Positions 4,001 to 64,000 of a stretch of 64,000 nucleotides of DNA are shown here, in pieces. Origin of the DNA: Glandiceps talaboti (taxonomy: Eukaryota; Hemichordata; Enteropneusta; Spengelidae). A model generated the notes under the pieces. That model was given only the letters and a program-made list of their open reading frames with translations. It was not told where the DNA came from and did no database searches. Every line of letters starts with the position of its first letter. The first letter of the stretch is position 1. The DNA lies in the NCBI RefSeq assembly GCF_964340395.1, contig NC_135556.1, positions 6,617,501 through 6,681,500 of the forward strand. The letters are read 5' to 3'. The position numbers and the translations under genes were made by a program.

Positions 4001-4096
<96 letters not shown>
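3937..4096. repeat. CTC-rich tract and (AT)n microsatellite
   Basis: A CTCCTC pyrimidine tract and a short CAT run are followed at about 4003-4096 by a pure AT dinucleotide array of about 94 bp. A similarly long AT array lies at 32947-33039. Confidence 0.97.
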
Positions 4097-8261: not shown

Positions 8262-8317
8262 CTACAGAATTTGAAAGCAGATCATCTAATCAGTGACTTG
8301 GAGCACAACGTACAGGT

Positions 8318-9316
8318 ATGGCGAACGGGTCTATTCGGACTGATTTTGAGAAACATTTTGCCGTCGTTGTGCAATCGAGTATAGCAGTATTGACAGTTCT
8401 CAATAACTCTCTCGTAATATTGGCTATGGTCCTCTTCAAGTCTCTCCGTCGAAGGAGGTCTAATTTTTACATACTGAATTTGTCGGTAACAGACTTTTTG
8501 GTCGGCGTGTTTATCCTCCCATTGAGTGTTCTCTATTCATACAAAGAAGAATGGCCGTATTCGTCGGTTGCCTGCAGAATTTATCAAAGTTCCCTCATTT
8601 GCATTTGCGGGGAATCTATTTTTGGTCTGGTTTTGGTCAGCGTTGACAAGTATGTTTTCATAACCTCACCACTTCATCATCACAAGTATTCGTCGTATCA
8701 TCGGATATTTACTGTCATAGCTACAAGCTGGGTGATTGCTGGAATGTATGCATTCATACCGACCATGACATATGTGAATATTAATTCAAAGAGTCATAGT
8801 AATCAATATCCGCTGTGTCTGCCTTTAAAGCCATGGTTCGCCGTGTCCTCTCTAATCATTCACTATATACTCCCGTTTAAAGTCATTTTCTATGCAAATT
8901 ATCACATTTTTCAAGCGATACAGAATCAAAAGAGGTCGGAAGGCACGTTTCCAGTTGATAATATCCCGGATGAAAATGCTGACCCCAAGACAATACAGAC
9001 CGTAGATATTCGAAATATCAAAACACATACACATCATCGCACACTAACGTGTGGGGAGGTCAAAGCGATTAAGGGCACATTACTAGTTGTTTTGGTTTTG
9101 ACGCTGATGTGGCTGCCGTATTTTATTATTCTCACCGTCGACACCATTTGTTTTTGTGTTGGACCGCGGTTCTTTGAAGGTTTGCATTGGGTGGCATTTA
9201 CTAATTCAGCAATTAATCCATTACTGTATGCCTATAATAAGGACTTTCGTGAGGCGTACCGGAAGATCCTGTGTTGTTATTGGAGGAGGCACCGAGGCTC
9301 GGATAATGCCTCATAA
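8318..9316 (+). CDS. Intronless class A (rhodopsin-like) GPCR, orphan
   Basis: A complete single-exon seven-transmembrane receptor of 332 residues. Class A landmarks are in order: N30 (1.50), D59 (2.50, LSVTD), C86 (3.25) paired with C167 in extracellular loop 2, D110-K111-Y112 in place of DRY, W138 (4.50), P186 (5.50), W265-L-P267 in TM6, and NPLLY at 300-304 (NPxxY) followed by an amphipathic helix 8 and C319-C320, a likely palmitoylation pair. The N-terminus is short with one sequon (N3-G-S). The start has G at -3 and +4. TM6/TM7 look like the amine/adenosine-related receptors, but position 3.32 is L93, not the amine-binding Asp, so an aminergic ligand is unlikely. It should act at the plasma membrane through G proteins; ligand unknown. 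Intronless orphan expansions of this class are common in invertebrate deuterostomes. Confidence 0.93.
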   Translation: MANGSIRTDFEKHFAVVVQSSIAVLTVLNNSLVILAMVLFKSLRRRRSNFYILNLSVTDFLVGVFILPLSVLYSYKEEWPYSSVACRIYQSSLICICGESIFGLVLVSVDKYVFITSPLHHHKYSSYHRIFTVIATSWVIAGMYAFIPTMTYVNINSKSHSNQYPLCLPLKPWFAVSSLIIHYILPFKVIFYANYHIFQAIQNQKRSEGTFPVDNIPDENADPKTIQTVDIRNIKTHTHHRTLTCGEVKAIKGTLLVVLVLTLMWLPYFIILTVDTICFCVGPRFFEGLHWVAFTNSAINPLLYAYNKDFREAYRKILCCYWRRHRGSDNAS

Positions 9317-24000: not shown

Positions 24001-27000
24001 CGAACAAAAAAAACGCCTACTCTTGGCCAAATCAACATATAACTCACATACCCAATGTTTTGGCTGATAATACGTCATAAGGGTAGGGATTTGATGTCTA
24101 TGGTTTCTGAAAATGAACTTACCCATCCATAATCATGGCATCAAGAGTAGCTTCACCGTTTTCATCTACCCTGTAATATAAAATATACATCAAATGTTGT
24201 AAATACCTCGGCATAATAAAATTGTCTGTGTACATATTAATTATCGTGGTCACTGTCACTGATAATCGACTTGTAAACGTATTTGCTGGTATTTGCGTTT
24301 GTATTTAAACGCGTAAGCAAGCTTATATGCAATTTATCATCGCACTGTACATGTACAGTACAGTACAGTACAGTACAGTATGGTACAGCCTACAGGACAG
24401 TACGTTACGTTACGTTACGTTACGGTATGGTACGGTGCAGTACAGTACAGTACAGTACAGTACAGTACAGTACAGTGCAGTGCAGTACAGTACAATACAG
24501 CCTACAGGACAGTACGTTACGTTACGTTACGTTACGTTACGTTATGGTACGGTGCAGTACAGTACAGTACAGTACAGTACAATACAGTACAGTACAGTAC
24601 AGTGCAGTGCAGTACAGTACAGTACAGCACTGTAGTACAGTGCAGAGAAGTGCAGTGCAAGACAGTTCAATTCATTTCAGTATGGTACGGTATGATATAG
24701 CGTTGTGTTGTGTTGTGTTGTGTTGTGTTGTGTTGTGTTGTGTTGTGTTGTGTTGTTTTTGGAAGTATCATACTTTAACTTCGTCAATAGATACTTACTT
24801 TCCTTCATATCCAACACTGTATCGACATACAGACGGATAGTCTTCACAAAACGTACATCCATTTTCTACAGCGTCCAGTGCACTTCCCCCTTCCATCAAT
24901 GTATTGTATGCTGAGAGGTGATTGAAGAAAGTGGCGATCAGTTTTATATTTTCACGAAATATTCTACATTTCGCCGGGTTAAATTTGGTAAAAAGTATGC
25001 AAAATGTATATATTAATTGATCATTCATTGACAACTACACGTGACCAACTTAAAGTAGTGCCAGTGGCACCGCAGCATAGTTGAGTATTGTATTGGGTTG
25101 ATTCCATTTTGTTACTACAGAGCAGCTGAATAATTAATATTGTTTGCAGTTGACAGTGTCATTAACGACTGTGGCTTTCCTGGTTTCGATATAAGCACCT
25201 AGAAGTGTACCCGAAAAATTATTGGCACCATGTCTGAACATATAATTATAAATGCTGCACCCTACTCTGAACCATTCCAATCAGAGTGTAATCATGCAAA
25301 TCAACGTCAACGTCCAAATAATAGATACGACAAAATCAACCCATCACGTGACGCCAATTCAACTGCCTGTCACAAGATCATTAGTCGGTCCAGGGTAGAG
25401 GCTAGAAACTATTATTGTCAGTCAAAATAACAGTAAGTAAAGTCAGTATGATATAGACTGTATTTATATCATATCAATACATAGTTTTAGCTTGTTTCTG
25501 TCCAAAATGATCTTGCCTAAGTGAGATTGCAGGATTGTATCCACGGAAACGAAGCCAACAATGTACCATTCGGAATGCAATGCATTGAGAACTGTGAATA
25601 ATATCGCCGTATTAAAGTGAGAACAAAAACGGTTGGCATTTCGACTAGATTCGACAAGTGTGACGTGATATATTTTCTTCACTGATAATATTACGACTTT
25701 GTATAAATCAGTCTCGAACTAATGTTTAATCATATAAGTTAATTATACACTCATAGAAGAGAGTAATACCTGAAATATGTTTTAGTGTCTCTGAAGACAA
25801 ACAAAACAGGGACATTGCTAAGATGGTTAGAATCTAGATTAATAAAAGAGTATTATAATTAATCAATTGCCCTTGTCCTGTTCTCCTAAAGAAATAACTC
25901 GTCTAAGACAACATACTAACAATAATGAAGATTAAATTGAGTTGAGACGAGGGACACAATTGAGTGTTTTGGAGAATCTAGACATGGTTTATAAGAACCG
26001 TTTGTAAAATGTTCTTACAGTGTGTTGGGTCAAAATCCACAAATGATAGCCATTATGTAGTATCTCGTTATATTTTATCACCATGGAGATGTAAAATATG
26101 CGATTTATGTGGTTCTTAATCGACAGCCATTAGCTCCAAAGCCACCCTTATATATCTATGCTCTTTTTTTTGCAGCCAATTTAATGTTCATTGTAAAATA
26201 AAACCGTGACAAACACTGCAATTTTCTTATTCTAGCTGATGGTCGACAGCAAAGTAAGAGAAAAAAAATAAAGACATCACGTTGACCCGTTTACATCGCT
26301 CCTCGTACCCTGGTTATCTCAACTACTGTGTACATGAGATAAATGGAGTACCTAGAGCGCTGTAAAGAGGCTAATCGCGCATATAAAGTTGCTGGATTTT
26401 TCACAAAGTTATCAGTTTATTGAAACTGATAACCTCTCGCACTTCACAACCATAAAGAGATCAGGATATAAGCTATCTACATTCCCACATCAAAAACACA
26501 AATAGGGCAACTGATAAAATAAAAATGTTGTCGGGACACAGTCTATCATGTAAATATAATTTACTGTTTTTAATGTTCAGATCATGGCACAGCCTTGTAA
26601 ATCACCAACGAGTAAGTAAGTAGATTGTGACTATATTGAACTCAGTGTAGCTTAACCATGTCCATAGATTAAATTAATAGGTGCACTTAATGTCAATTTG
26701 CAAATTCCGGAAGATTAGGGTGGAGACGCTCATCAGCGGTTGCTATATATTTGCTAAGAAAAAACCATATAATGCATAACTGATCATAATGAGTCAATAC
26801 CAGAGATAATACGGATGGCTAGAGGCTATCCGGGGCTCCGAATTTTAAAATCTCTCTTCACTTCGCTATCTTGGTAACACTGACAGATTCGAAGCCACCG
26901 TGGCCACGGATACCGTCTAGATTAAAGTGCGCATATTTGGGGTGTAAATTAAAATGAGTTCCCGCGGAGGTGGGATATTTTTTCTGCAATATAAGGATAA

Positions 27001-31975: not shown

Positions 31976-32441
31976 AACATGATACGACATGTTGTCTTTT
32001 TGCTGTACTAAGAGTACAACGAATCGTTTAATATCCGCAATAATATATTTTCATGTATATAATATCCTCTGTTATTCACAATGTATTGTACACATGACTT
32101 GTGTTCTAAGAGAGTACATATAGTGTATATTCAGTTGCTATGTCAGCTGTGAACTTGTCAACAATGCTCTGACTCGTGACAGGTCAATTTGAAGCACAAG
32201 TTTATATTCGTGATGGTGAAATTTGGGTATTTATCTTTATATGTTATAGATTAACTATGTATAATGTATGTTATTTACTAACTTCAAATTTCAATTCGTC
32301 ATAAGGTAACTATAACTCTGCACACTTTTGGTACATAAATCTGTTGATATATCTCTAACCGCGTTAATGTCCACAGGAACTTGAAATTGATCAATAAATA
32401 CACAGGCCTAAATACACAAATAAATGAACTAAAAAAACAGA

Positions 32442-32460
32442 TAGATAGATAGATACATAC

Positions 32461-32491
<31 letters not shown>

Positions 32492-32705
32492 TCAGGAGGT
32501 AGATAGATAGATACATACATCCATCCATCCATCCATCCATACATACATACATGCATACATACATACATACATACATACATACATACATACATACATACAT
32601 ACATACATACATACATACATACATACATACATACAATAAACAAACAAACAAACAAACAAACAAATAAATAAATAAATAAATAAATAAACAAATAAATAAA
32701 TAGAT
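32442..32705. repeat. Compound tetranucleotide block: (GATA), (CCAT), (CATA), (CAAA), (TAAA)
   Basis: Five tetranucleotide motifs follow one another, each apparently derived from its neighbour by single-base change. The block ends about 35 bp before the MITE at 32741. Confidence 0.96.
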
Positions 32706-32740
32706 AGATAAAAATTTATATATGACTAGGCAAAAAAAAA

Positions 32741-32939: not shown

Positions 32940-33040
<101 letters not shown>

Positions 33041-37428: not shown

Positions 37429-37500
37429 TTCCCATGCCGGGAATCGAACCCGGGCCGCGCGGGTGAAAGCCGCGAATCCTAACCACTAGACCACATGGGA
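37429..37500 (-). tRNA. tRNA-Glu (anticodon UUC)
   Basis: A 72-nt tRNA. The acceptor stem TCCCATG/CATGGGA pairs fully, with discriminator A at 37429. The D-arm is GGTCTAGTGGTTAGGATTC (internal A box). The anticodon stem CGCGG/CCGCG encloses the loop CTTTCAC with anticodon TTC at 37465-37467. The T-arm contains GGTTCGAATCC (B box). The only differences I note from the vertebrate tRNA-Glu(UUC) sequence as I remember it are compensated or in the stems. No intron. A Pol III T-run follows at once, so it looks functional. Confidence 0.97.
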
Positions 37501-39651: not shown

Positions 39652-39801
39652 TTAATTCTTCTCCGTCAATCCCCATTCTTTTGCATTAGTCTTCCAGTAC
39701 TCCTCATAAGTCTTGAATGATGGATGATGTTGCCAGGCAACAACTTCTTTATGGTGCAACTCTTCTTCTGACACTCCATCCAGATCAAAAAAGTTGACAA
39801 T
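39652..39801 (-). CDS. VOC gene exon 6: C-terminus
   Basis: Residues 401-449: IVNFFDLDGVSEEELHHKEV, then AWQHHPSFKTYEEYW, and a stop after LTEKN. The acceptor is AACCAG|. Confidence 0.88.
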   Translation of the reverse strand: MVNFFDLDGVSEEELHHKEVVAWQHHPSFKTYEEYWKTNAKEWGLTEKN

Positions 39802-42800
39802 CTGGTTTAGATAAGAGAACAGAAATACAAAGATTGTAAACAAATGTAATACAATGTACTTTCTATCGAGAAGTCTTTAAAAGGGAAAGCCATTCCAGGA
39901 AGTAGATTTCATTAACTTTGGGTTGCACATTGAATATTCATGATTATTTATCTGAAGGATATAAGCTCTTAGGAGTCATGAATATTCAGTGTGCATCTAA
40001 TGAATATTCATGTCTGTTACGACCTATGACGCAATGGTTGGTGTTCCACTGAAAAAACAATAGAGGTGAAAACGCATTGTAATTACCAAGGTATCAGTTA
40101 CACTAACACTTTACCTTGAAGTCATTTTAACTTCTGGGAGATTATCACAGAATAAATAATTAATCATATACTAGTAATCAGTATGTATCAGCAGATAAAC
40201 TGACACTTGAGATTATTTCATTTAGATAAGGGGATTTTGTAATGGACTAAGTGTCTTTCAGGCTATGTTTAGTTGGAAGAGAAGAGTAGCCAAGGAAAGA
40301 AGGAAAACAGCAAAATCAGTTTTATTCCTCCACAAACAAATATAATAAAGAAATCAAATTATTGATAACATGTTTGTTGTGCTCTAAGTCAAAAGGATGC
40401 CCCAATGACACACCAAAATGCAGTGTTGCCCTATCCTGTATTATTTAGTGACTTACAAGAAAATTTGATTTCTATGTTGACCCACAACCATATTTTGCCT
40501 TTTATTGGTAAGCCATAACTTAAAACTCAAAAGAATGCCCTTATCAACATCAGTCTGTGGCAGGGATATATTGCCAAGGTCCTAAATGTCTACACTACCA
40601 CATTTTTTTTAAGGTTAAACAGAAATCTATCAATTCTGATTTTTTTCAACCTTGGAGGGCATTCATTGATATGATGACAACCAATCCTTTGCTCTACACA
40701 TTACATGTTAGATGCCTTCCAGGTGCAATTTGTATGACCGTTTGAATGCAAAATGATAATAAATAATGAGCCAAACTTTTGCATGTACATGTACTCATTA
40801 TAATCACAAATTTTGAGAAAATTGTTAGTATTCAAATTTTTTTTTGAATACTAATAATAAAACAATGGATATGAATGAAATACTAACAGGTTGTTGTACA
40901 AAGTTTGGACCATCAACAAATGCTTCAACCATGTTATTCTCTGGATCACAGAAATACAGAGCCCAGCAGTTGCCATGAGTAATAGGGATGACAGAATGTA
41001 CAGGTTCATGTTGCAACTGATCTTGTAATCTCCTTAAGTGATCAATAGACCTGAAATGGAAAAGATGACAGTCTGTTATTATAAGGATAGTATGAGGGAC
41101 GGTTACTTTGTATTTATCAAGAGAAATTGTGCGTGTAAATATGATGTCATTGCCAGAGATTTTCCCATAAACCCTTGCTGGAAATTCCAAAATGGCTGAA
41201 CACAAGTGTTCCTATCTATCAGTCTATTTGTATCTACTTGATTGACCTGTAAGGTAAAATCGACAGTCAAAACAGATACAATATTGTTTGAGACTGTCAC
41301 TTGCAGTAGCCGTGTACGATCATGGTGTGGTGCATGTTTTTGTTTTGCTTATCAAAAATATTTAAGGGGCACGTGTTGTCTTTCATATAGTCCTTGATAA
41401 GTACTCGTGAATCACCCTCTGCAAGAGACAGACACATGCAACAATTGTATCCATTCTGACTTTCAATTCTGTGCATTTGCTGTATTAGATTTAAAACACA
41501 AAACTTACTGTAGTCTAAATGATAACTGGTGTACTATTGGTAAGTCTAGATAAACTTACTGTACGTAGTCTAAATGATAATTGGTGTACTATTGGTAAGT
41601 CAAGATAAACTTACTGTAGTCTAAATGAAAACTGGTGTACTATTGGTAAGTCAAGATAAACTTACTGTAGTCTAAATGATAATTGGTGTACTATTGGTAA
41701 GTCAAGTCTAAATGATAACTGGTGTACTATTGGTAAGTCAAGATAAACTTACTGTAGTCTAAATGATAATTGGTGTACTATTGGTAAGTCAAGATAAACT
41801 TACTCTAGTCTAAATGATAACTGGTGTACTATTGGTAAGTCAAGATAAACTTACTGTAGTCTAAATGATAATTGGTGTACTATTGGTAAGTCAAGTCTAA
41901 ATGATAACTGGTGTACTATTGGTAAGTCAAGATAAACTTACTGTAGTCTAAATGATAACTGGTGTACTATTGGTAAGTCAAGATAAACTTACTGTAGTCT
42001 AAATGATAATTGGTGTACTATTGGTAAGTCTAGATAAACTTACTGTAGTCTAAATGATAACTGGTGTACTATTGGTAAGTCCAGTCTAAATGATAATTGG
42101 TGTACTATTGGTAAGTATAGATAAACTTACTGTAGTCTAAATGATAATTGGTGTACTATTGGTAAGTCAAGTCTAAATGATAATTGGTGTACTATTGGTA
42201 AGTCTAGATAAACTTACTGTAGTCTAAATGATAATTGGTGTACTATTGGTAAGTCAAGTCTAAATGATAATTGGTGTACTATTGGTAAGTATAGATAAAC
42301 TTACTGTAGTCTAAATGATAATTGGTGTACTATTGGTAAGTCTAGATAAACTTACTGTAGTCTGAATGATAATTGGTGTACTATTGGTAAGTCAAGTCTA
42401 AATGATAATTGGTGTACTATTGGTAAGTATAGATAAACTTACTGTAGTCTAAATGATAATTGGTGTACTATTGGTAAGTCTAGATAAACTTACTGTAGTC
42501 TGAATGATAACTGGTGTACTATTGGTAAGTCTAGATAAACTTACTGTAGTCTAAATGATAATTGGTGTACTATTGGTAAGTCAAGTCTAAATGATAATTG
42601 GTGTACTATTGGTAAGTCTAGATAAACTTACTGTACGTAGTCTAAATGATAATTGGTGTACTATTGGTAAGTCTAGATAAACTTACTGTAGTCTGAATGA
42701 TAACTGGTGTACTATTGGTAAGTCAAGATAAACTTCAGATAATGGTCTAGCTTCAATGAATTCAAATAGTCGATAGTCTCTTCCAATCATTCTTACTATG

Positions 42801-45708
42801 CGGTTGTTTCCTAGGTAACCATATTTTGCCGGGAAAAGTCCCATGATTCTAGAATAGAAGGCCACCATTCCATCTATGTTATGTACCTGTAACAATATAT
42901 TTGCAAATATAATATGTGGAGTAAAATATTGGATACTATACTGGATTAGCTGTACATCAGAAATGAACTTTTAGTACTTCAGTGTCATTCAAAGAAAAGA
43001 GCTCTAATCAAAATAAGCCCATGTTGAAGATATAGTTCCAAATAGTGTTGGGGAGCCCTCATGCATTGATCAACCCCTTTAAAGACCAAGACTTTTACGG
43101 GCACAAGGGTGGAGCAACACAGGTACAACTAGACTGTAAGATACGTCGTGACGTTTCGCCCTCACCGGCCTCCTCTCTCCTCTTGGGGGTTGGCCGATGG
43201 TTGAGGGCGCCCCGTCACGGCGTACCTTACAGACTAAGGTACAACATACCTTATAATCTAAGTCCTCAACTACTGTTTGTACCTTTTATACAAGTTATGA
43301 ATGTCTTTCAGACAAAAAGTGATGTGAGCTTCAAAATGGATAGATTGACTGAAGCCATTTCCAGTTCCCCAAGCCTGGCATTTCATGTACACATAAAGAG
43401 GCCATGTAACTTTAATTATCAAACAACACGGTGTGTAATACAAGTCTCTGCTGTTCCAACATGCTGTTATTAATCCCGATTCATTTGCCTACTTTCCATA
43501 TTTCATGATTTGTAACAGGTTCCGTTCTTCCACGGTCTGGTGTCGGCAGTTGCATTTGTTTACAAACTAAAAAACTAAAAGTTGGTAAAATCAGGATTAA
43601 GTTATATAATAAACAGTCTTATATAATTACCTTCATACTGACATGACTGAAACTGATATTTCTCTGCCAGGGATCATTGGCTTGGTCTTCAGCCCAAAAT
43701 TTTCCTGGCCTGTCAATGTCTTCCAGGAAAGGATATTCTTTCCTGAGCGAAGTGAGCCAATGTCGTCTTGTCTGGAAACCAGGCAACTTTGAGCATATCA
43801 TCTGAGTCTCCTCTTTAATACTCACAGAGTTGATATTGAATGGAAACTGAACAAAATCTTGAATGTGGTAGCCTAGAAATCAAACACATTCTTATATTTA
43901 GTGGTTGCATAACATTTGTGTGGCTAAAAGTGGAGATGGAGAAATCGGATTACCCTTGGCTTGTAAAATATCAGATGCCCAGAATTTCTTGATTAATAGC
44001 TTGGACAAGTGTAAGGAAAAAGTGTTCTAAACCAATTAAAAAAGTGCTTCTCTGAACTTACATTCAACAACCTCGAGCTCACAGTATGATGGCAAATTAA
44101 CCTGAGATTGACAGTTCAGGTTTTCTAATTTTGTATAAGGGGAGATACCTCGATTCAGAAAAAGACACAAGACAGTGTATGATAAATCTCCATGTGTGTG
44201 TCAAAATGAACAAAAAAAATCGTGTACAGATTTTCTTATCGCATATATAATCAAAATTAAAATCAATGGCAACATATCCAATTAAGAATGAAACGAGAGA
44301 CTGAGTGATCTGTTGTCAACAGTCAACATATCAAGGCGGACATCGGAAAGACAAAAGATTATAAAGTTGCACAACTGAGGGCGCTGTTCTACACAGCACT
44401 TCGATTTCTGCAAGGTCACAAGACGTCTGCAGCAGGACTTACAAACAACGTGCACACTCTTCGTAAAAGTACAGCCGTGCAAAAAATATCTTATGCAAAT
44501 ATACCCCTCCAAGTGTGATTATCATAGTAAGTTAGAAGTCCAGATGTTAGACACTGAACAGATTTTGGCAGCAATTAAGTTTGACACTTGTAAACAAATA
44601 ATCCCCCTTCACAAATAGTATATTTATATACCTGTTTCTACATATATCTTAATCATATCTCCATTATCATCTGTAATGAACACGGCCCATTGATCACACT
44701 CATTAATGGCTCGGAAATTCTTCACAGCAGGGTCATCCATCACCATTTCACCAACTTTACGAAGTGTTTCCAACGAGTCAACTCTGAAGGCATAGTAGTT
44801 AAGTTCATTGAACTCAACTGTTTCTGAACGATGATGTAATAGAGCTAGTTGGTGATGTTCTCGTGGATCCCTTGTGAAAAATGTTATTGGTACTTCTGGC
44901 ATCCATTTTTTGAAAAGACGAATCAACATCTTAAAAATAGACTGAAGAACAGGATGATTCAAACGTTGAGAATATTTGGGTGGTGGTGGAGCATTGACGC
45001 CTCCTTCATCTGCTATCTGTGTGTGACGAGAGTAGAATCATAACATAAAAACAAAGTAATTAACATTGTGTAATAAATGAATAAATAAACAAACAAAATT
45101 AATTAATTAATTAATTAATTAATATTTAATTTGACAGTGTTTCCCAAGTTCTGCATCATTGTTTTTGAACTTTTTGAAGTTTTTCCGACTCCAACTTGAA
45201 TACCCCCCGCCTTTTTTGTAGGTCTTTAGACTTTGCGCTTTGAATTAGAAAAGTCATCATTTGTCTTACAAGGTCATAGAGATTCGGTTATCTGTAGACG
45301 CGCCAAGTAATATCTTAATTTACAAGGTCAAAGGTGAGCATATTGACTCAACATTGAGACAACAACGGTACGTCAAAACTTTCAAATATATTGAGGATGT
45401 TACGATGAGGAGACACATATTTCAAAGAATCCATATCAAATTTCTTAACGTTTTTACTATTAAATACCATAATAATACAGTACTCTCGTATGCCTTACGT
45501 TCATCAGAAATAATTTTTGAAGCAGACGAAAATGTTCATTTGCTGTCCTTGGAAATGTTGCAATTCCGACGTGACTGTAGTAAACTGGCATAGCTAACTT
45601 GGTGTTGTTTCCTTCATCGTTTACGTATCGTAGCGGGGGTCGTGGTCTTGATACAAAGTATATGATGACGGCGATGAAGATTACAAATATCCACCCAGCC
45701 TTGCCCAT
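39652..45708 (-). CDS. Membrane-anchored two-domain VOC protein, extradiol-dioxygenase-like
   Basis: Six exons on the minus strand: 45499-45708, 44632-45016, 43631-43872, 42687-42886, 40888-41050, 39652-39801. GT-AG junctions and phases close to 449 residues. The N-terminus MGKAGWIFVIFIAVIIYFV is a signal anchor. Two glyoxalase/dioxygenase-fold (VOC) modules follow: about 42-200 (YSHVGIAT, DPREHHQLALL, YYAFRVDSLETL) and about 270-400 (FSHVSMKVHNIDGMVAFYSR). Module 2 keeps a 2-His-1-Glu metal set: H275, H339 (PIVHQLSFRL) and E388 (NNMVEAFVDG), with H371 and Y378 placed like catalytic residues of type I extradiol dioxygenases. Module 1 has Tyr and Lys where ligands are expected. The tail contains WQHHPSFKTYEEYW. 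Catalysis on catechol-like substrates is inferred, not shown. The most downstream ATG with a good context (A at -3) is chosen; an in-frame ATG lies 60 nt upstream. Confidence 0.87.
39879..40045. mobile_element. AAGGGGAATG-family element, copy 1 (partial)
   Basis: The left end AAAGGGAAAGCCATTCCAGG resembles the inverted end of the 51159 copy. The core GAATATTCATGAxT...ATCTGAAGG...AGTCATGAATATTC is palindromic. The following TCTAATGAATATTCATGTCTGTTA matches 51159-51414 in the same orientation. The right terminus is not identified. Confidence 0.5.
40888..41050 (-). CDS. VOC gene exon 5: third metal ligand
   Basis: Residues 346-400: SIDHLRRLQDQLQ, then ITHGNCWALYFCDPENNMVE, giving H371, Y378 and E388, the typical last strand of a ring-cleavage VOC module. 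The acceptor is TTTCAG| and the donor CCT|GTTAGT. Confidence 0.9.
41501..42735. repeat. Minisatellite derived from exon 4 end plus 5' splice site
   Basis: 26 copies of the core TGGTGTACTATTGGTAAG. Most units are 51 bp; seven are 36-bp versions lacking the ATAAACTTACTGTAG part, and two carry a 4-bp insertion (CTGTACGTAG). On the coding (minus) strand each long unit reads as VYLDLPIVHQLSFRLQ followed by the donor-like GTAAGT. The rightmost unit is the real exon end. Confidence 0.95.
42687..42886 (-). CDS. VOC gene exon 4: module 2, source of the minisatellite
   Basis: Residues 280-346, ending EVYLDLPIVHQLSFRLQ with the second predicted ligand H339. Its last ~51 nt and the donor CTACA|GTAAGT belong to the tandem array that continues through the next intron. 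Confidence 0.9.
43130..43236. mobile_element. TAGACTG-type foldback MITE with 9-bp target duplication
   Basis: 107 bp in VOC intron 3. The ends are TAGACTGTAAGATACGTCG and, on the complement of the right end, TAGTCTGTAAGGTACGCCG; the arms extend about 40 bp through GTGACG...GCCCTCA..GGCC. A perfect direct repeat AGGTACAAC flanks it (43121-43129 and 43237-43245). Confidence 0.85.
43631..43872 (-). CDS. VOC gene exon 3: inter-module linker and start of module 2
   Basis: Residues 199-279, including a charged linker and FSHVSMK, which supplies the first predicted metal ligand (H275). The acceptor is TTTCTAG| and the donor AAG|GTAATT. Confidence 0.88.
44632..45016 (-). CDS. VOC gene exon 2: module 1
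   Basis: Residues 71-199: a proline-rich linker (VNAPPPPKYSQRLNHP), a basic helix (KMLIRLFKKWM), then TRDPREHHQLALLHH and the second half-module ending DDNGDMIKIYVETG. The acceptor is CACACAG|. Confidence 0.87.
45499..45708 (-). CDS. VOC gene exon 1: signal anchor and first beta strand
   Basis: Residues 1-70. A single hydrophobic segment (about 6-19) is followed by RPRPP, then VYYSHVGIATF, the first VOC strand, with H46. The donor is AAC|GTAAGG. The orientation implied is type II or an uncleaved anchor with the enzyme in the lumen or cytosol; undetermined. Confidence 0.85.

Positions 45709-45968: not shown

Positions 45969-64000
<18,032 letters not shown>

Follow-up and report, generated by a model that had tools for sequence, protein, structure and literature searches.

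The fourth intron of a six-exon gene of the hemichordate Glandiceps talaboti very probably contains a mirage-type minisatellite, which arose from the end of exon 4 and is carried passively in the intron, the exon ending at the first of many repeated donors. The term mirage denotes tandem repeats lying across exon-intron boundaries, as reported, in the available portions of the accounts, for the Adh3, globin and troponin C genes of amphioxus (PMC3087553, PMC3902484). Such arrays illustrate one way of remodelling introns and exons, and they raise the question of how one donor is chosen among many near-identical ones. Within the window, the whole stretch of 64,000 nucleotides analysed here, the array runs from the end of exon 4 into intron 4 at 41501-42735 (minus strand); it is a long, well-resolved array of highly similar units, and both of its original flanks are readable.

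The array and the exon end that it repeats

The host gene (39652-45708, minus strand) was modelled by eye and by script from GT-AG borders and an unbroken frame of 449 aa. Its first three exons lie at 45708-45499, 45016-44632 and 43872-43631, and exons 4 to 6 at 42886-42687, 41050-40888 and 39801-39652. The encoded protein resembles glyoxalases and extradiol dioxygenases (VOC). The Pfam profile PF00903 matched residues 273-388 with 22.0 bits against a cut-off of 20.6 (E = 2.3e-4), and a tblastn search with a C-terminal query of 169 aa retrieved 18 plasmid records encoding bacterial VOC proteins, the best match covering 98% of the query at 31% identity (E = 2e-17). A profile score above the curated cut-off and the existence of alignable relatives identify the product as a predicted member of the VOC superfamily. 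Since the NCBIfam dioxygenase models scored far under their cut-offs (at best 24.0 of 320.2 bits), we claim no narrower family. In prokaryote genome contigs and viral contigs, a search by short peptide pattern with a single query, which reaches close relatives only, confirmed no close relative of this protein.

Two VOC-like halves are apparent in the protein, encoded at 44632-45708 and 39652-43872 (minus strand). The Pfam match concerns the C-terminal half only; the same bacterial proteins can also be aligned with the N-terminal half, which retains a REHHQLAL motif absent from the C-terminal half. Around the gene, kinesin-motor-like gene pieces adjoin it at 47341-63256 (plus strand, by eye), an open frame of 339 aa at 8297-9316 (plus strand) resembles by eye a seven-helix amine-type receptor, and a tRNA gene at 37429-37500 (minus strand) is the sole Rfam match of the window at the gathering threshold.

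Exon 4 (42687-42886, minus strand) terminates with CTACA/GTAAGT inside the first unit, in frame with exon 5, which starts at 41050. Its last 49 bases (42735-42687) form the exonic portion of unit 1 and are followed by the first donor, GTAAGT at 42681-42686 (minus strand). To situate this border, seven of the 18 bacterial records were fetched and their proteins aligned with that of the window. In all seven, a single unbroken stretch aligns with the last residues of exon 4 (IVHQLSFRLQ) together with the first of exon 5 (SIDHLRRL); the junction is free of gaps in six, and the Streptomyces protein has two additional residues there. Two weak PDB matches also cover this region: catechol 2,3-dioxygenase 1mpy (E = 0.21) is ungapped across the junction; in 3zw5 (E = 0.11), a gap of one residue lies beside it. 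Because intronless bacterial homologues continue through the junction, unit 1 is the true exon end. The alignments give good support to the view that its exonic portion is old protein-coding sequence and that the array derives from this exon end and its 5′ splice site. The first-pass annotation, made by reading the letters of the window, had likewise described an array continuous with exon 4, its rightmost unit being the real exon end with a GTAAGT donor, and frame and alignment bear this out.

The same annotation had proposed His339, encoded in unit 1, as a metal ligand. The corresponding column reads N, N, Q, S, F, M and N in the seven bacterial relatives, with His in none of them, which is not what a metal site like that of catechol 2,3-dioxygenase would show. 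The adjacent position, Gln340, is Gln in all seven, and it is this residue that the CAG/CAA codon varying between array units encodes. In the weak match with 1mpy, His339 stands opposite the first His of HHVSF and Gln340 opposite the second, which we take to be the metal ligand. The role assigned to His339 is probably wrong.

The best row of Tandem Repeats Finder for the array (41512-42735, period 189, score 1758) excludes a chance product. Splitting the minus strand at ACTTACCAATAG delimited 26 units arranged head-to-tail, and a search with three errors permitted also gave 26, in line with the "about 25" copies first counted beyond unit 1. The first AAGTTTATC begins at 42735 and the last GTAAGTTT finishes at 41501, so that the limits given earlier for the array are exact. 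Seventeen units are 51 bp long, two are 55 bp and seven are 36 bp. The minus strand contains 19 copies of GTAAGT, one per long unit; the 36-bp units have none, 15 bp, donor included, being absent from them; the 55-bp units carry four additional bases ahead of the donor. The seven short units without GTAAGT had been recognized at first reading, the two 55-bp units had been missed. On the plus strand, TTGGTAAGT occurs 26 times and every unit contains ACTTACC, in agreement with the description of the array as donor-like on both strands.

Counting the last unit with its flank as one, 14 distinct unit strings occur in mixed order, with a mean identity of 97.7% over the first 33 nt. Unit turnover was judged from unit order and from identity at eight lags, with only a handful of variable sites. 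Of the 22 unit pairs at lag 4, the best of the eight lags tried, 5 are identical, as against 19 among all 325 pairs (binomial 0.008), an excess that fits a turnover of blocks of units. The exact array-unit pattern had no match in viral contigs, and inspection by eye of three stretches of the window, which contain four of its other short tandem repeats, revealed none that resembles an exon end. Long simple-sequence arrays (GTACA-type, ATAC/ATAA and AT) are present in the window at 24347-24756, 32441-32712, 4003-4095 and 32947-33039.

At its two ends the array has the exon flank on one side and the original intron flank on the other, with AAGTTT common to both at a distance of 51 bp. The exonic copy of this 6-bp direct repeat lies at 42730-42735 (minus strand). 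The last donor, GTAAGT at 41503-41508 (minus strand), is followed by a flank (TTTGTG...) that reads as the original start of intron 4. When the array is collapsed to a single unit, one AAGTTT stands in the exon, within TGAAGTTTATC, and its partner, 51 bp downstream in this collapsed locus, in the donor, within GTAAGTTT and GTAAGTTTTGTG. Priming of the first duplication by a direct repeat about 51 bp apart, as initially proposed, is plausible, but the nine-base AAGTTTATC named for that role is wrong. The AAGTTTATC at the intron start is a product of the duplication and the outer, original start reads GTAAGTTTTGTG; the stretch originally shared was therefore AAGTTT.

We propose that the array began with the tandem duplication of a 51-bp piece containing the last part of exon 4 and the beginning of its 5′ splice site, AAGTTT having probably served as the site of slippage or end joining. 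Growth to 26 copies would have proceeded by unequal exchange or slippage, the array gaining on the way the 15-bp deletion of the 36-bp units and the 4-bp insertion of the 55-bp units, and higher-order repeats of 87 and 189 bp would have formed. Most likely, the first donor still marks the end of the exon, the remainder of the array being carried passively in intron 4.

Products of the repeated donors

The donor of the array, ACA/GTAAGT, agrees at 7 of 9 positions with the 5′ splice site consensus MAG/GTRAGT. With so many duplicates, the early suggestion that they would either give alternative transcripts or be suppressed was a fair expectation. The protein product was computed for each of the 19 donors. 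Only the first leads to a full-length protein with its complete C-terminus. All 18 later donors lead to ...VYLDLPIVHQLSFRLQ followed by an in-frame stop, directly after unit 1 (...SFRLQ), and use of the last one would require an exon of 1378 nt. Splicing is probably normal, since the first donor gives an exon of 200 nt, whereas each later one lengthens the exon and brings a stop codon at once. Messages with a premature stop and two exon junctions downstream are expected to be degraded. A recursive splicing point was also considered and rejected, as the units read CTACAGTAAGT and not AG then GT.

Analysis of the changes found in more than one unit revealed CAG/CAA, TTT/TTC and CTT/CTA, all silent, and GAC/TAC, which replaces Asp with Tyr in three cases. 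CAG/CAA, reported at first as the only recurrent change, is thus accompanied by three others, one of them not silent. By hand count, 4 of 7 distinct changes are silent (chance 0.05 with equal rates, 0.13 when weighted for transitions), as are 3 of the 4 recurrent ones (0.04 and 0.09, respectively). The idea that selection maintains the peptide in the array was rejected: this silent share (P 0.04-0.13) is not convincing, and in-frame stops oppose it.

Three other explanations of the array were weighed against passive descent from the exon end. The peptide VYLDLPIVHQLSFRL, or a close form of it, is still readable along the array, as had been pointed out, and this legibility is what a coding repeat, or alternative exons giving a repeated peptide, would have in its favor. 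All 17 units of 51 bp end in TAA in the peptide frame, however, and the two units of 55 bp change the frame and run into a stop one unit later; the longest open frame in 41480-42740 is 33 codons on either strand, and the seven aligned bacterial relatives have no such insert. Given these stops and this open-frame length, we rejected a coding repeat, which is hardly conceivable; the legible peptide marks youth or homogenization, not coding. An assembly artefact, by which the copy number would be inflated or the array misplaced, is very unlikely, since 14 unit strings in mixed order, indel variants and clean end junctions are unlike a simple assembly loop.

A regulated device of the poison-exon kind is also improbable, if less so. 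The last donor, or others, would be left open and partly used, the resulting transcripts, with their premature stop, would be degraded, and array length would tune the output of the gene. All the alternative products do stop after SFRLQ, and the folding model described below predicts the last donor to be more open than the other 18 (0.080). Against this stand the 1378-nt exon that the last donor entails and the amphioxus mirages, which are reported, in the part of the account available, without disturbance of splicing (PMC3087553). Passive carriage of a duplicated exon end in intron 4 remains our preferred reading.

Predicted pairing between neighboring units

ACTTAC, present in every unit, reads as the reverse complement of the unit's own donor. 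As RNA, the longer form ACUUACC equals, we assume, part of the 5′ end of U1 snRNA. GTAAGT is intact in 19 of 19 long units and ACTTACC in 26 of 26, and 18 of the 19 donors have a hairpin partner of this type downstream; in the example at 42667-42686 (minus strand), GTAAGTTTATCTAGACTTAC, the donor of one unit faces the ACTTAC of the next. Each donor might then pair with the ACUUAC of the following unit over a loop of 4-8 nt, which would exclude U1 and keep the decoys silent. We regard such masking as unlikely, though the least unlikely of the alternatives considered, and it is an addition to the passive mirage explanation, not its opposite. As a corollary, the hairpin would weaken the true first donor, the last one remaining open, and splicing of the intron may depend on the array.

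When folded as 28-nt pieces, the three junction types reached -6.3 (7 of 200 shuffles as good), -6.5 (2 of 200) and -5.1 kcal/mol (5 of 200). Accessibility was taken as the probability of being unpaired, P(unpaired), in a folding model of the full exon 4-intron 4 RNA, with 41 GTAAGT sites elsewhere in the window as a reference. The predicted value is at most 0.0099 for 18 of the 19 array donors (0.0066 for the first) and 0.080 for the last, the most accessible of the array; the reference sites have a median of 0.052, and none comes down to the array median of 0.0027. At each of the four window settings, the last donor is more open than the internal ones, least clearly at the shortest (70/40), with an internal median of 0.011, an internal maximum of 0.040 and 0.12 for the last donor. 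The internal median was 0.0012 with the native sequence and rose to 0.018 once ACTTACC had been scrambled in units 2-26 (40 scrambles, range 0.0024-0.089), versus 0.0009 in control scrambles of other 7-mers (40 scrambles, range 0.00004-0.012). With two units alone, P(unpaired) of the first donor already falls from 0.053 to 0.0067. A known precedent, in the available part of the source, is exon 10 of tau (MAPT), the 5′ splice site of which lies in a local hairpin with a regulatory role (PMC6720520).

Several results weigh on the other side of this reading, which comes from an energy model in which the two scramble ranges overlap. Artificial six-copy arrays were built from the 41 other GTAAGT sites, and the collapsed unit was treated alike. 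In six copies of the latter, the internal donors (0.017) were matched or beaten by 6 of the 41 artificial arrays and the first donor by 2 of 41, and the fall from the single copy was matched or exceeded in 9 of 41. Artificial arrays thus also bury their donors, and tandem copying can do so without the ACTTACC motif. The hairpin of a single unit does not stand out from its shuffles, of which 104 in 200 are as good. ACTTAC is present in 114 of 7378 sampled 51-mers (1.5%) and in 2 of 41 units around outside donors; its occurrence here is a modest coincidence. As so few sites vary, intact stems prove nothing. Finally, the first donor, which must work, is masked too, and its predicted pairing sits badly with its role as the working site. 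The masking predicted by the energy model is backed by the controls only in part.

A stronger form of the idea appears distinctly less probable still: the unit would have happened to carry the U1-like ACUUACC, each decoy would have been born in a hairpin, and the array would for that reason have been tolerated. If true, this would explain the tolerance of 18 strong duplicate donors and predict that surviving mirage arrays are often self-complementary at their splice sites. Should the masking hold, it would provide a rule, readable from sequence, as to which duplications of splice sites persist.

Comparison with mirages and other repeats at splice sites

The unit of the present array spans an exon-intron boundary, unit 1 consisting of 49 exonic bases and the donor; a splice signal recurs in 19 of 26 units; and the identity of 97.7% together with the excess at lag 4 (the best of eight lags) points, within one haplotype, to concerted evolution. 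Judged on sequence-level features, it is a mirage, a kind of repeat already described in other genes.

With the amphioxus mirages, as presented in the available portions of their descriptions (PMC3087553, PMC3902484), the array shares the tandem duplication of a boundary with its splice signal, the repeated intronic splice sites and the concerted evolution of the units. These sources report instability in length and undisturbed splicing for the amphioxus mirages, and similar duplications for PGBD5. Two haplotypes of the BflGb6 mirage comprise 6 and 3 units of 150-160 bp, on the acceptor side, BflGb9 carries a 157-bp duplicate of the 3′ boundary of an exon, and the units of the Adh3 mirage measure 10-72 bp (PMC3087553, in the part available). 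In the present array, the units number 26, measure 36-55 bp and lie on the donor side. A pairing between donor and anti-donor is not mentioned in the available portions of these two accounts (PMC3087553, PMC3902484). The part that is new here is a testable idea on self-complementary splice-site arrays.

A minisatellite whose units carry splice donors was reportedly described by Turri et al. in 1995. In human IFI6, according to the available excerpts, a minisatellite supplies several splice donors (PMC4526556, PMC2572611), and two downstream repeat units serve as donors, leading to three mRNAs (PMC4526556). The present array resembles IFI6 in having minisatellite units with donors and differs from it in that any later donor brings a stop codon, all 18 downstream donors meeting one immediately where those of IFI6 give alternative protein-coding mRNAs. 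In human genes of segmental duplications, internal tandem repeats at exon-intron boundaries can alter splicing and have been linked to new introns and alternative transcripts, as far as the available part of the report goes (PMC2812944); here too a tandem array lies across an exon-intron border, one known from genomic sequence alone. Whereas tau exon 10 has one regulated hairpin, the array of Glandiceps talaboti would form an array of hairpins, by predicted pairing only.
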